Part shown: piece by piece, positions 13,981 to 20,483 of the stretch
Layout of the letters: the number at the start of each line of letters is the position of its first letter
Position numbering within the stretch: position 1 is the stretch's first letter
Source of the DNA: Synechococcus sp. JA-2-3B'a(2-13)
GTDB taxonomy: Bacteria; Cyanobacteriota; Cyanobacteriia; Thermostichales; Thermostichaceae
NCBI RefSeq assembly: GCF_000013225.1
Contig: NC_007776.1
Location: 2,672,501 to 2,736,500 of the forward strand
DNA: 64,000 nt
Direction of reading: 5' to 3'
Notes under the pieces: generated by a model
The model's database searches: none
Told to the model about the DNA's origin: nothing
Seen by the model: only the letters and a program-made list of their open reading frames with translations
Translations under genes and position numbers: made by a program

Positions 13981-15228
13981 ATGCTGACACCTGTTGATCT
14001 GGAAAAACGAGTGGCTTATTTGCAGAGTCCCCAAGCCGTTCGGGATCGCTGTCGGTTGCTATTGGAAAGGGTTTTGGCCGGTGAATCAGAGCATTTTCGC
14101 CTCGACCTGAATCGGATGGGATCCGTAGCCGACTATGTGATCACCACAATGCGGGCCCACTATCCCACCGGGGAAATTCCCTTCCACAGCCGCTGGCAAC
14201 ATTTTCAAGTGGGATCCGGGGAGCGCCTAGCCCGTTTGGAAAATCGACTTAAAGACATGGATCCGCTGGAGCGGCTGCGATGCAAGTGGGATCTGGCCAT
14301 CGTCAGCGTGTTGCTGGACGCAGGCGCAGGCTCTGCCTGGAAGTACCGGGATCCAGAAAGTCAGACGGCGGTGGGTCGTTCCGAAGGTTTGGCCTTGGCC
14401 AGTTTCGACTGGTTCTGGCAAGGTGGGTTTTCCAGCGATCCCCAGCAGCCTCTGCAGGTGGATGCGGCGGGCCTGGAGCGGATCACCTTGGCGGATTTGG
14501 CAGCAGCTTTCCAGGTGGGGCCGGAAAATCCTTTACTGGGACTGGAGGGGCGCTGGCAACTGCTGCAAAGGTTGGCACAAACTTTGCGGGCTCAACCCCA
14601 TTACTTTGGATCCGGTCACAATCTTCCTCGTCCAGGCCGGTTGTGGGACGCCATCCAGCCTGAGGATCCCAGCCGTGGGATCAAAGCAGCACAGGTCTTC
14701 CAGGCAGTTCAGAGGGGGTTTAGCTCCATTTGGCCTGGGCGAGTCTCGCTGGCCGGGATCCCTCTGGGGGATGTCTGGCCCTATCCCCACCTGCCCCAAA
14801 CAGAGCCGGGGAGCCATTGGGTGCCTTTTCACAAGTTGTCCCAGTGGATGACCTATTCCCTGCTGGAGCCGTTGCAGCAGGAGGGGATCCCAATCGGGGG
14901 TTTGGATGAGCTGACGGGTTTGGCGGAGTATCGCAACGGGGGGCTGTTTGTGGATTTGGGGGTGATCCAGCTCAAGCAGCCGGAGATTGGGCAGCAACCG
15001 CATCCCCCAGATTCGACGGTGATTGTGGAGTGGCGAGCCCTGACGGTGATTTTGCTGGATCAAGTTGCCTCCTTAATCCGGGAAAGGCTTGGCTGCTCTG
15101 CCCAGGAGTTGCCCCTGGTGAAAATACTGCAAGGGGGAACCTGGACGGCAGGACGGCAAATCGCGGCCCAGCTCAGGCCAGATGCTTCTCCTCCCATCCA
15201 ACTGCTCAGCGATGGCACGGTGTTCTAA
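13981..15228 (+). CDS. DUF1688 / URC4-like protein (uracil catabolism family)
   Basis: A 415-residue protein starting MLTPVDLEKRVAYLQSPQAV. DLNRMGSVADYV, RWQHFQVGSGERL, KWDLAIVSVLLDAGAG and a late NGGLFVDLGVIQLK mark the DUF1688 family, whose yeast member URC4 belongs to the URC pyrimidine-degradation pathway; its chemistry is unsettled. GAGAAGGAA upstream of the ATG supports this start over a TTG 18 bp earlier. No uracil phosphoribosyltransferase gene, the frequent partner, is adjacent here. The gene converges on cobB with a 4-bp stop overlap (CTAA). Confidence 0.82.
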   Translation: MLTPVDLEKRVAYLQSPQAVRDRCRLLLERVLAGESEHFRLDLNRMGSVADYVITTMRAHYPTGEIPFHSRWQHFQVGSGERLARLENRLKDMDPLERLRCKWDLAIVSVLLDAGAGSAWKYRDPESQTAVGRSEGLALASFDWFWQGGFSSDPQQPLQVDAAGLERITLADLAAAFQVGPENPLLGLEGRWQLLQRLAQTLRAQPHYFGSGHNLPRPGRLWDAIQPEDPSRGIKAAQVFQAVQRGFSSIWPGRVSLAGIPLGDVWPYPHLPQTEPGSHWVPFHKLSQWMTYSLLEPLQQEGIPIGGLDELTGLAEYRNGGLFVDLGVIQLKQPEIGQQPHPPDSTVIVEWRALTVILLDQVASLIRERLGCSAQELPLVKILQGGTWTAGRQIAAQLRPDASPPIQLLSDGTVF

Positions 15229-16637
15229 GAGGGGATGGGCAGGCCCCGAGTAATCCTTATGAAACTTCGCAGCAGCCGCATGGCCAGGTCGGGACGGGAT
15301 CCCCAGTGCAGATGCAGGTACGAAGCGTGAAGGCGCTCGGTGGCCCATCCTTCCTGTTGAAGCTGGGCGGGGGATCCCCAGCTGTAGATTGGGCTGGGGG
15401 AGATGGGGGTGCTGCGGGAGCGGTGAAATTCATGCCCGCGCAGGCGATCCCCGGCTGGGGCCAGCAGGGTTGGGCGCAAAACCGCAGCTTCGCGGTAGCC
15501 CAAACACAGCCGGTCGGCCATGTCTACCTGGATGGGTAATAGCCCGGCCATCGGGTAGGTCTTTCCCTGAAAATCGGTGAGGGATTGGCCCAGCACCATC
15601 AGTCCGCCACACTCGGCATAGAGGGGTGGGTGGGTGGGCGGGGGAGGTTGTTGGTTAATTCTCTCAGATAGAGGTGCTGCAAACAATTCCGGGAACCCTC
15701 CCCCCAGCAGCACGCCGTCGCAGGGCTCCGGTGGCCATAGCCCCACCTGGAGGGGGGAATACTCCAGCAGCTCGGCTCCACAGGCCCGCAACAGATCCAA
15801 GTTGTCGGCGTAGTAGAAGTTAAAGGCGTGGTCTTGGGCCACCGCCACCCGTACCTGTTCGCAGCGGCGGGGCGGAGTCCTTTCGGTGAGAGGGGGGATC
15901 CCTGGCCACAGCTCTCCTACCGCTGGAGGAAGCCTCCGAATGAGGGGCAATAGGCTATCCCAATTGACGTGTTGCTCGGCCAGCTCGGCCCAGGCAGCTT
16001 GCCAGTGGGGGAAGTGATCCAGTTCTGAGACAGGCACCAACCCCAGGTGTCGGCTGGGCAACCGCAAATCCTCCCGCCGGGGAAACTGGCCCAAGACTAG
16101 GATCCCCGCTGCAGCCGCTGCCTGCTGCAAGATTTGTCCATGCCGCTCCGAGGCCACCCGGTTGAAGATCACCCCGGCAATGGAGAGGCGGGGATCCCAG
16201 CGGCTCAAGCCGTAGAGCAAAGCGGCCACCGTCGTTCCCATGCCACTGCCATCGATCACCAGCACCACAGGGATCCCGAGCAGGCGGGCCACATGGGCGC
16301 TGCTGGCAAAAAAAGGCTCCGTTCCGCCCTCGGGGAGGGGCAGGGATCCCGGCGCTCGTCCATCGAAGAGGCCCATTACCCCCTCTACAATGGCTCCATC
16401 CTTGCCCTGGCAATGGTGGCGAAAGCAGCGCTGCACAAAGTCCTCGTCGGTCAAGAAGGGATCCAAATTGCGACAGGGGATCCCGCTCACCGCCGTGTGA
16501 AACAGAGGATCAATGTAATCCGGCCCCACCTTGAAAGGTTGGATGCGCAGGCCCCGTCGCCTCAGAGCGGCCAACAGAGCCAGAGTGATGGTGGTTTTGC
16601 CGCTGCCGCTTGCTGCCGCCGCCAGCAGAATGGCCAT
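15225..16637 (-). CDS. cobB: cobyrinate a,c-diamide synthase (CobB/CbiA)
   Basis: A 470-residue amidotransferase that amidates the a and c carboxylates of cobyrinate with glutamine and ATP. An amino-terminal P-loop (AAAASGSGKTTITLALLAAL), VGPDYIDPLFH and VEGVMGLFDGR form the ATP-grasping half. The class I glutaminase half carries the nucleophile cysteine in LYAECGGLMVLG and a late histidine in GHEFHRS. The ATG at 16637 has an AGGAAAG ribosome site; a longer frame would run into cobO. It follows cobO by 16 bp, so the two form a cobalamin operon. Confidence 0.93.
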   Translation of the reverse strand: MAILLAAAASGSGKTTITLALLAALRRRGLRIQPFKVGPDYIDPLFHTAVSGIPCRNLDPFLTDEDFVQRCFRHHCQGKDGAIVEGVMGLFDGRAPGSLPLPEGGTEPFFASSAHVARLLGIPVVLVIDGSGMGTTVAALLYGLSRWDPRLSIAGVIFNRVASERHGQILQQAAAAAGILVLGQFPRREDLRLPSRHLGLVPVSELDHFPHWQAAWAELAEQHVNWDSLLPLIRRLPPAVGELWPGIPPLTERTPPRRCEQVRVAVAQDHAFNFYYADNLDLLRACGAELLEYSPLQVGLWPPEPCDGVLLGGGFPELFAAPLSERINQQPPPPTHPPLYAECGGLMVLGQSLTDFQGKTYPMAGLLPIQVDMADRLCLGYREAAVLRPTLLAPAGDRLRGHEFHRSRSTPISPSPIYSWGSPAQLQQEGWATERLHASYLHLHWGSRPDLAMRLLRSFIRITRGLPIPS

Positions 16638-16653
16638 CTTTCCTGCCCAAGGG

Positions 16654-17400
16654 TTAGAACTCGATGCCGATTTGCGCCTTGATCCCCTGGTCACGGAAGG
16701 GATGCTTGACCAAAGTCATCTCCGTCACCAGATCGGCTCGGTCGATCAACGCTGCCGGCGCGCCCCGCCCCGTCAAGATCAGGTGAACCCGCTCCGGTTT
16801 CTCCGCTAGCCCGGCCAACACCCTGTCCGGCGAGAGATATCCCAACTTGAGGGCGACATTGATCTCATCCAGAAGCACCAACTGAAACTCCCCGCTGGTG
16901 AACAGCTCCCGCCCCTTTTCCCAGGCCGCCTGTGCATGGGCGATGTCTCGCTCCCGGTCTTGGGTTTCCCAGGTAAAGCCCTCTCCCATGGCGTAAAAAG
17001 CTATTTTCCCCAGGCCCAGCTCTGGATGCTCGGCCAACTTTCGCAACAGCTTGGCTTCCCCCGGATCCCAGGCCCCCTTGATAAATTGCACCACCCCCAC
17101 CGACAATCCCTGGCCGAGGGCGCGGAAGATCATGCCAAAGGCAGCCGTGGTCTTTCCCTTGCCCTGCCCGGTGTGTACGATGATCAAGCCCTTGTCATCT
17201 CGCATGCCCGACAGACGCTGCCGCTGGATCTGCTGGCGTTTTTGCATTCTTTGGCGATGCCGCCAGTTTGGGTCGGCCTCTGCGCCCGGTGAAGACTCCG
17301 CACCGCTATCGCAAGCGTCCTCAAGTTCTGTTGTCGAGAGGGGTTGGGATCCGGAAGCCGGTGCAGGCCAGCCAGACAGGGCGGGTTGGGCCATAATCAT
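16654..17400 (-). CDS. cobO: cob(I)yrinic acid a,c-diamide adenosyltransferase (CobO/CobA type)
   Basis: A 248-residue protein. After about 70 variable residues comes the P-loop VHTGQGKGKTTAAFG, then VQFIKGAWDPGE, MGEGFTWETQDRE and VLLDEINVALKLGY with a Walker B-type DE. The enzyme transfers the adenosyl group of ATP to cobalt in corrinoids. Start choice is uncertain: ATG at 17400 or 17394, or a GTG at 17421. I saw no cobalamin-riboswitch consensus in the spacer upstream. Together with cobB it covers two neighbouring steps of B12 synthesis. Confidence 0.93.
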   Translation of the reverse strand: MIMAQPALSGWPAPASGSQPLSTTELEDACDSGAESSPGAEADPNWRHRQRMQKRQQIQRQRLSGMRDDKGLIIVHTGQGKGKTTAAFGMIFRALGQGLSVGVVQFIKGAWDPGEAKLLRKLAEHPELGLGKIAFYAMGEGFTWETQDRERDIAHAQAAWEKGRELFTSGEFQLVLLDEINVALKLGYLSPDRVLAGLAEKPERVHLILTGRGAPAALIDRADLVTEMTLVKHPFRDQGIKAQIGIEF

Positions 17401-17553
17401 AAAAATTGAGATTCGCCACACAAGCTGAGGGGAAGGTGCTGTGCCTACGGCAGGGGAACTGCACCGCTGACGCGACTGTTAGGGCAAACTCAAGTTCCCC
17501 CACAGCAGACCGCCCCCATCCTAATCCCTCATCTGGTTGCATTGGCTGGGATC

Positions 17554-17974: not shown

Positions 17975-17990
17975 AGGGACAAGTTCCGTT

Positions 17991-18100
17991 CTTTATCCAG
18001 AGCAGACTGAGGGACCAGGCCCAATGAAGCTGCGGCAACCCGGCGGAAGCCTCCGCTACGGTGCCAATTCCTGCGGTTAGTCAGTAACCGAAAGATAAAG
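17991..18100 (+). ncRNA. SAM-I (S-box) riboswitch aptamer
   Basis: All hallmarks of the SAM-I aptamer are present in order: P1 strand CTTTATC (17991-17997), the CAGAG turn, GAGGGACCAGGCCCAATGAAG (P2/kink-turn, quoted in part as GAGGGACCAGGCCC), GCGGCAACC, a P3 hairpin GCGGAAGCCTCCGC, the SAM-binding GGTGCCAATTCCTGC, a P4 hairpin CGGTTAGTCAGTAACCG, and the closing P1 strand GATAAAG (18094-18100). Binding of S-adenosylmethionine stabilises P1. It lies upstream of metK, whose product makes the ligand, so feedback repression is expected. See the leader entry for the likely switch. Confidence 0.93.
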
Positions 18101-18399
18101 GCAATAAAGTTTTCTCTAGAGGATAGCCCTCTTTGGCGGGGGACTTTTCTGGCAACTTTATCCTTTAGCAGCTCCCATAGCTCTGGTCGCGGCAGCGGGG
18201 CAAGGCCTTCGCGGCAGTGCTGGTGCGTCAGCGGTGCAGAACGCTTGCTGGTTGCTGGGCCTTTCCTCTGGCTGAGTTGGGGCTGGTGCGGAGCACCTGG
18301 GGATCCCTGGTTGGCTCTTTCTCCGACGGATAATGAACGAGCGGGTGAGCCTTGTTTTTTGTTCAGGTTCTCAGTTCTAGCTTTTAAGGAGAAGGTTCG
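18101..18399 (+). promoter_or_regulatory. metK leader / riboswitch expression platform
   Basis: A 300-nt leader separates aptamer and start codon. CTTTATCC recurs at 18156-18163, repeating the 5' P1 strand, so GATAAAG of P1 could pair with it instead when SAM is absent. A GGTGC/GCACC hairpin lies near 18275-18290 and a T-rich run at 18353-18361. A 15-codon frame (ATG 18333 to TAG 18380) ends just before the metK ribosome site; it lacks a good ribosome site of its own. Which part terminates or blocks translation is not resolved. Confidence 0.5.
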
Positions 18400-19659
18400 T
18401 TGTCCAAGTCGTTTTTGTTTTCCTCGGAGTCGGTGACGGAGGGGCACCCCGACAAAATCTGCGATCAGATCTCCGATGCCATCGTGGATGCCCTCTTGAC
18501 GGCGGATCCCCTCAGTCGGGTGGCCGCCGAGGTGGTGGTCAATACGGGCCTGGTTCTGTTGACCGGGGAGATTACCTCACAAGCGCAGGTCAACTTCACC
18601 CGTCTGGTGCGGGACAAGGTGGCCGAAATTGGCTATACCGATGCCAAGAATGGGTTTTGTGCAGAAAGCTGCGCGGTGTTGGTGGCTTTCGATGAGCAAT
18701 CTCCCGATATTGCCCAAGGGGTGAACATGGCCCTGGAAAGTCGCGGCTCCCAGGAAGATCAATTCGACTTGGTCGGGGCCGGGGATCAGGGGTTGATGTT
18801 TGGCTTTGCCTGCGATGAAACTCCCGAGTTGATGCCCTTGCCCATTAGCTTGGCCCACCGCCTCAGCCGCCAGTTGGCCACGGTTCGCAAAAACGGCACC
18901 CTGCCCTATCTGCGCCCGGATGGCAAAACGCAGGTGACTGTGGCCTATGAGGAAGGTCGCCCGGTGGGCATTCACACCCTGCTCATCTCCACCCAGCACA
19001 CACCCACGATTGGCGCCATTACGGAAGAGGCGGCGGTGCAAGAGCGGATCCGCGCCGATCTCTGGGAGGCAGTGGTCACGCCGGTGTTTGCCGAGCTGCC
19101 CATCAAGCCGGATAGCCACACCCGCTTCCTCACCAATCCCACCGGCAAGTTTGTCATCGGCGGCCCTCAGGGAGATGCGGGCCTGACCGGACGCAAGATC
19201 ATCGTCGATACCTACGGCGGCTATTCTCGCCATGGGGGTGGGGCCTTCTCCGGCAAGGATCCCACCAAGGTGGATCGCAGCGCTGCCTATGCGGCTCGTT
19301 ACGTGGCCAAGAACATCGTGGCAGCTGGCTTGGCGCAAAAATGTGAAGTGCAGGTGAGCTACGCCATTGGGGTAGCCCGCCCCATCAACATTTTGGTGGA
19401 AACCTTTGGCACAGGGCGCATCCCCGACGAAGAGCTGTTGCGGCTGGTGCAGCGCCACTTCGATCTGAGGCCGGCAGCCATTTTGGCCCAGTTCCAACTG
19501 CGGGAGCTGCCCCGCCAACGGGGGGGACGCTTCTACCAAAATGTAGCGGTCTATGGTCACTTCGGGCAAACTCACCTGGATCTGCCCTGGGAGCGCACCG
19601 ATAAAGCCGCTCTGCTGCGGGAGGAGGCTCTTGCCAAGGCGACTGCCCTCTTGGCCTAA
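18400..19659 (+). CDS. metK: S-adenosylmethionine synthetase
   Basis: A 419-residue enzyme making SAM from methionine and ATP. It has [20 protein letters not shown] at the start (ATP/methionine site), [15 protein letters not shown], the PPi-binding [20 protein letters not shown] region and [19 protein letters not shown]. The start is TTG with a strong AAGGAGAAGG ribosome site; no ATG fits the conserved amino end. It stands alone behind a SAM-I riboswitch, and an IS element begins 13 bp after its stop. Confidence 0.97.
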
Positions 19660-19672
19660 GAGGGGATCACTA

Positions 19673-20483
19673 GGTTGTGTTGATCTTTCATTTGAGCCAA
19701 AAGAGAGCACTGACGAGATAGAGAAAACTCAAGAAGTTCCTGGCCAATTTGTCAAAACGAGAAAATAGATGCCGGTACTGCTTTAACTTATGAAAAAAGC
19801 ATTCGATTAAATGCCTCTCTTTATACAGATGCTTGTCATAATGCCGCTGCGTCTTTCTATTCCTTTTAGGCGGAATAACCGCTTGAGCTTCCCCTATCTT
19901 CTCAATCAACTTATCCGCATCATATCCTTTATCCCCAATTACTTTGGTATCCTTTCTCTGCCAGCCCTCTATCAATTCTTCCCCTTGAGTAATATCGCTC
20001 TTTTCCCCGCCAGTTATTCTCAATTCCAGCGGATTTCCCAACCCATCTACACTCACATGAATCTTGGTGCTGTATCCGCCTCGGCTTCTCCCCAAAGCTT
20101 GCTCCCCTTTTTTCCGGCAGCACAGGAGTGCGCTCGAACCATGGTTGAATCAATAATGAGATGCTCTAAATCAGGGTCGTCAATAAAATACTTGAACATC
20201 CGTTCCCACACTCCAAAACGACTCCACCGGTGGAATCTTTGATAGATGGTGTACCATTTGCCATATCCTTCTGGGAGGTAGCGCCAAGGAGCACCGGAAC
20301 GGGCTATCCAAAGAACTGCTTCAATAAACTGTTTGCAGTTTGCTTCTTTCCCAATGTTAACTCTCTCTTCTGTCTGTAAAAAAGCCAATATCTTCTGCCA
20401 TTTGTTTTCATCTAAAAAAACCAACTTCATCCTCTTTCCTCTATAAATTATTCCCTCTATCCTAACATAAGATCAACACGACC
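19673..20483 (-). mobile_element. IS5-family insertion sequence, copy 1 (811 bp)
   Basis: Imperfect terminal repeats GGTTGTGTTGATCTT and GGTCGTGTTGATCTT bound an 811-bp element flanked by TA on both sides, a 2-bp target duplication as in the IS427 group. The second copy in this window has exactly the same length and only a few base differences. It sits between metK and the MoaB/MogA gene without damaging either. Confidence 0.92.
19688..20430 (-). CDS. IS5-family transposase, two frames joined by -1 frameshift
   Basis: The first frame (20430 to 20053) starts MKLVFLDENKWQKILAFL, includes WRYLPEGYGKWYTIYQRFHR and the first DDE aspartate in LEHLIIDSTMVRAH. The second frame (20095 to 19688) carries IGDKGYDADKL (second aspartate) and ERHLIECFFHKLK, the R-x3-E-x6-K signature holding the catalytic glutamate. 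The frames overlap, and a slippery heptamer A-AAA-AAG lies in the overlap in the right phase for -1 slippage. Both frames look undamaged, so this copy may be active. Confidence 0.9.

Follow-up and report, generated by a model that had tools for sequence, protein, structure and literature searches.

How is metK controlled in the hot-spring cyanobacterium Synechococcus sp. JA-2-3B'a(2-13), and does its leader harbour a riboswitch for S-adenosylmethionine (SAM), the product of the enzyme that the gene encodes? SAM-I (S-box) riboswitches have been described mainly from Firmicutes. The locus lies within a stretch of 64,000 nucleotides (nt) of contig NC_007776.1, hereafter the window, for which an original prediction made from the sequence alone had proposed a complete SAM-I aptamer ahead of metK and a second copy of one strand of its P1 helix as the likely switch. 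Judged by its sequence and modelled structure, the leader appears to carry a genuine SAM-I riboswitch of the ordinary known kind, and we assign a probability of roughly 0.6 to the reading that it turns metK down at high SAM via attenuation. The riboswitch class, its target and its OFF logic are already known; the interesting part is the distribution.

A covariance-model search with RF00162 returned a full-length match at 17990-18101, scoring 84.8 bits (E=1.3e-18) against a curated gathering score of 44.4 bits, which bears out the proposed aptamer; the genome (3,046,682 bp) has no other SAM-I element. The P1-P4 four-helix junction and the conserved core (AGAG, GAGGGA, GGCAACC, GGUGC, CCUGCGG) align to the model without broken pairs, and the same structure was recovered in a consensus fold of five congeners, namely our own sequence, its nearest relative G330, and G389, G391 and G392. 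The complementary CAGG (18016-18019) and CCUG (18070-18073), candidates for the L2-J3/4 pseudoknot on a reading of the sequence, are unchanged in all five. The downstream gene had also been named correctly: its product contains all three S-AdoMet_synt Pfam domains, indicating a complete gene, and a TTG start with a Shine-Dalgarno (SD) sequence is found in 15 of the 16 metK loci of the class, ours included. Upstream of P1, TTGACA and a TA-rich -10 element occur at the equivalent place in most relatives, and the candidate promoter (Table 1) was not reported by a consensus scan that was limited to spacers of 16-18 nt.

Between the aptamer and metK, two elements point to the way in which the switch could work. 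The first is a terminator-like hairpin at 18127-18150, present with its UUUUCU tail in all five congeners, the U-tract being imperfect and about one such site per region being expected by chance. In the alignment 93% of its cells are paired, compared to 41-69% in slid controls, and four pairs are changed on both sides; the resulting covariation score was reached by 9 of 500 shuffles, which with five related sequences is supportive only. Forcing P1 to form raised the predicted terminator stem at the U-tract from 0.04 to 1.00 in G392 and from 0.07 to 0.55 in G391 at 37 C, and from 0.11 to 0.38 in G330 at 60 C. Where P1 forcing matters, the P1-free state pairs GAGGG(AUC) of the aptamer with the 5' arm of the terminator. 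As a general antiterminator this pairing was rejected, being predicted in G391, G392 and G330 (60 C) and not in our sequence or G389, and it stays a candidate; the match in G392 is made up in part of the genome-abundant palindrome GGATCC. Likewise discarded was a second terminator near 18314-18359 (GGCTC...GAGCC followed by T6), seen by eye in our sequence and G330 only and not in the other congeners.

The second element is CCTTTAGC, the longest stretch without any variation among the congeners in the leader after P1, ahead of GGGATCC (a genomic palindrome) and AAGGAGA (the SD sequence). Its CCUUUA can pair with UAAAGG, which makes up most of the P1 3' strand, and the helix is able to form in all five sequences; GATAAAGG on the 3' side of P1 is likewise invariant, and the probability that a random 8-mer would be complementary to it over six bases is 0.0019. 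In SAM-free ensembles of our sequence and G330 at 37 C, P1 stands at 0.78-0.83 before CCUUUA emerges and falls to 0 thereafter, the shifted helix reaching 0.90-0.97 once CCUUUA is out and still 0.63-0.89 at 60 C. The same helix is clear in G392 at some transcript lengths. The original prediction of a mutually exclusive switch was thus right in kind, as there is a likely downstream competitor for the P1 3' strand, and wrong in register, as the invariant partner is CCTTTAGC, which overlaps the second CTTTATCC copy by two bases.

The partners of the P1 3' strand in our sequence, G330 and G392 lie beyond the U-tract, so that they are not the 5' arm of the terminator and no antiterminator of that kind was encountered. 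Since both CCUUUA and the second CTTTATCC copy are situated 3' of the sole terminator-like hairpin that is conserved, neither is a classical antiterminator for it, and the role left for the CCUUUA site is to stabilise the read-through state or to act downstream.

Table 1. Features of the metK leader, in window coordinates
Feature	Position	Strand	Basis or remark
Candidate sigma-70 promoter TTGACA-19-TACTAT, start site shortly 5' of P1	17944..17974	+	Read from sequence
SAM-I (S-box) aptamer, RF00162, complete	17990..18101	+	Covariance-model match, model 1-108
P1 5' strand CTTTATC	17991..17997	+	Model match, consensus fold
P1 3' strand GATAAAG	18094..18100	+	Unchanged in five congeners, consensus fold
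UAAAGG, able to exchange P1 for pairing with CCUUUA at 18162-18167	18096..18101	+	Ensemble folding
Terminator-like hairpin CCCTC-TTTGGC-GGGGG, then ACTTTTCT	18127..18150	+	Terminator scan, consensus fold, five congeners
Second CTTTATCC copy	18156..18163	+	Common to own sequence and G330 only
CCTTTAGC, likely competitor for P1 3' strand	18162..18169	+	Alignment, ensemble folding
Shine-Dalgarno AAGGAGA of metK	18386..18392	+	Identical in five congeners
metK, S-adenosylmethionine synthetase, 419 aa, TTG start	18400..19659	+	

The SAM-off switch for metK probably acts by transcription attenuation, and we infer the details of the expression platform, including the link between P1 and the hairpin. 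With SAM bound, P1 would be held together, the hairpin would form beside it and some transcripts would end early. In the absence of SAM, P1 would not be stable at the temperature at which this thermophile grows, and upstream sequence could capture the terminator arm; after transcription has proceeded beyond 18167, UAAAGG would pair with CCUUUA and lock P1 open. In our species and its nearest relative alone, the CTTTATCC copy would lengthen the closing helix via AUAAAGUU (18104-18111).

Several results weigh against attenuation of this form. The U-tract is interrupted, and shuffles of the region gave a mean of 1.2 terminator-like sites. In our own sequence the terminator stem did not depend on P1 when the latter was forced (0.05 vs 0.06 at 60 C), and in both our sequence and G330 it competes with another hairpin. 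The shifted helix is weak or partial in G389 and near zero in G391 in the SAM-free ensemble, and it shows no covariation among the five congeners because its sequence never varies.

Of the other ways in which the aptamer could act, translational control survives best, and we regard it as doubtful for this leader. Here, once P1 forms, AAGGAG would be hidden by the freed CCUUUAGCRGCUCC block, which contains the anti-SD cores CCUU and CUCC, or by another structure. Forcing P1 did lower SD exposure at 37 C in G330 (0.22 vs 0.43), G386 (0.08 vs 0.32) and G388 (0.03 vs 0.17), and the presumed Gloeobacterales leaders are short (in seven of eight, P1 and the MetK motif are 59-104 nt apart), with no terminator-like hairpin noticed, as would suit such a mode. 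However, the block lies about 220 nt 5' of the SD sequence, and at 37 C SD exposure is nearly independent of P1 in our own sequence (0.64 vs 0.63) and in G389, G391 and G392, so that SD sequestration was rejected as the main mode in the genus and attenuation is preferred there.

It is very unlikely that the aptamer is intact while the expression platform is degenerate or acts otherwise, for example through RNA decay or pausing. The post-P1 leader is invariant over only about 24% among the congeners, and the predictions do not agree on one platform for all five, both of which would fit such a state. Yet the aptamer hardly varies within the genus and has been retained at metK through two orders, which argues for selection on a working switch.

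The repeat on which the original prediction was built is real: CTTTATCC occurs exactly at both 17991-17998 and 18156-18163, and GATAAAG at 18094-18100. By dinucleotide shuffling (one test on one sequence), an exact CTTTATCC turns up somewhere in the 298 nt of leader behind the aptamer with a probability of 0.0036, so pure chance would be an unlikely source of the copy. At the aligned site, however, CTTTATCC is kept in our sequence and G330 only, and is replaced by CTTCGCCC in G389 and ATTCACCC in G391 and G392, so that the conservation in relatives on which the original prediction had staked the copy holds only in part. The helix that had been proposed has standard pairs in 77% of cells; three sequences lack the A-U pairs at columns 106/181 and 108/179. 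CTTTAT of the copy is also complementary to AUAAAGUU in our own leader, where, read from the sequence, this pairing and UAAAGG/CCUUUA together give a closing helix with six plus eight base pairs and a bulge of two bases. That GATAAAG alternates between the two CTTTATCC copies, the duplication being the switch, has hardly any probability left despite the exactness of the 8-nt copy and its retention in G330, since three of the five congeners lack it and the predicted pairing with the copy is at most 0.05 in our sequence and 0 in G330, because the register six bases further on wins; on alignment and ensemble folding we reject the exact duplication as the conserved switch.

The claim that S-boxes are rare in cyanobacteria agrees with both genome samples that we analysed. 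Across the phylum, SAM-I was found in 36 of 386 sampled genomes, our genus being the only carrier within its class in that sample. A sample of the class (n=390) gave 16 carriers, confined to two orders, and under stricter filters none was found in the remaining genomes of the class (about 372); at ten metK loci of other cyanobacteria no SAM-I was found at a permissive threshold. In our own order, SAM-I precedes metK in eight of nine genomes. The second order, which we take to be Gloeobacterales, with genomes presumably of Gloeobacter violaceus and G. kilaueensis, has SAM-I in eight of nine genomes, and in the ninth, G444, a derivative that scores below threshold stands immediately ahead of metK (22.9 bits; E=0.086, from a search of 4.2 kb). 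All 16 loci of the class above the search threshold have the aptamer directly before metK, which is also the target in 11 sampled SAM-I loci of other Cyanobacteriota classes. The two SAM-I-carrying orders appear to be the earliest branches of the oxygenic cyanobacteria.

One genome of our own order and genus, G390 (99% complete), stands apart: searches with proteins and domains found neither MetK nor an archaeal-type synthetase in it, and its DNA gave no match to the metK neighbourhood, which may reflect misassignment, withheld sequence or a real loss. G390 neither supports nor opposes the distribution pattern.

In a MetK tree, the carriers of both orders fall inside the oxygenic cyanobacterial clade, grouped together or near its base, with 4 label changes compared to 19 in shuffles, parts of the tree being weakly supported. 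This placement led us to reject a horizontal gain of the locus and fits vertical descent with loss in the crown. We lean slightly towards the view that the SAM-I/metK arrangement is a relic of the oxygenic cyanobacterial ancestor, perhaps of that of the whole phylum, which was passed on vertically in the two earliest orders, became kink-turn-less in one family and was lost elsewhere in the class. SAM-I may instead have been gained in the common ancestor of both orders, or the leader alone may have been transferred.

Derived SAM-I elements directly before metK were observed in the family of G451 and G444 (L044:1501-1592 and L130:2762-2892, the latter on the minus strand). They keep P1, CGGCAACC and GGUGCC; the GAGGGA/GGCCC part of P2, to which the kink-turn and the pseudoknot loop belong, is absent or has been replaced, G451 having a short CGUA-GGAA-UACG hairpin in its place. 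Going by these motifs, they are possibly a SAM-I variant without the pseudoknot. A further sub-threshold SAM-I (40.1 bits) lies before metK in G422 (L043:1501-1625, minus strand) and has a large hairpin inserted in P2.

Riboswitches have been described as rare in Cyanobacteria, with direct translational control frequent there (Barrick and Breaker 2007, PMC2258182). A metagenome study assigned two S-boxes to cyanobacteria (PMC2211319), and a survey from 2013 counted eight phyla other than Firmicutes that have SAM riboswitches (PMC3766115). In a search whose coverage largely excluded subscription journals, we found no literature on SAM-I in Gloeobacter, on its spread within cyanobacteria or on the two-order pattern.

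Compared to the metK and methionine S-boxes of Firmicutes (RF00162), our element is alike in its full-length match, its P1-P4 helices and conserved core and its metK target. It differs in its host, an early-branching oxygenic cyanobacterium, and in that the likely competitor for its P1 3' strand is placed after the terminator-like hairpin and not in the 5' arm of that hairpin. Melainabacteria-type genomes of other Cyanobacteriota classes share the aptamer class and the metK target, whereas other loci there have SAM-I before genes other than metK. The Gloeobacter-type leaders (L037-L042) resemble ours in having the aptamer above the cut-off directly before a TTG-started metK, and differ in being short, in that no terminator-like hairpin was noticed in them and in the complementarity that flanks P1. 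In these six genomes, a near-invariant GUCUCUUG immediately ahead of P1 is complementary to CAAGAGAC, which stands between P1 and the SD sequence; if formed as the letters suggest, this pairing would link the 5' end of the mRNA with the sequence that precedes the start codon.

The presence of the metK switch in both basal orders, together with a MetK tree that fits vertical descent, means that the age of a riboswitch and its loss can be tested within one phylum, and raises the question of how SAM synthesis is regulated in cyanobacteria that do not have SAM-I. The leader of this thermophile also offers a compact case in which a P1 partner lies beyond the attenuator.

The surroundings of the locus yielded a few further observations. 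Within the window, GGGATCCC occurs in 82 copies where 1.7 are expected, and GCGATCGC in none; the former is the dominant, highly iterated palindrome of Synechococcus JA-3-3Ab and JA-2-3B (PMC4390886). Directly 3' of metK, on the minus strand, lies an IS4/5-type transposase (19688-20430) in two overlapping frames (DUF4096 and DDE_Tnp_1), which is either a case of programmed frameshifting or a broken gene. Upstream of the leader, cobalamin genes (cobB/cbiA-like and cobO, 15225-17421) are encoded on the opposite strand.
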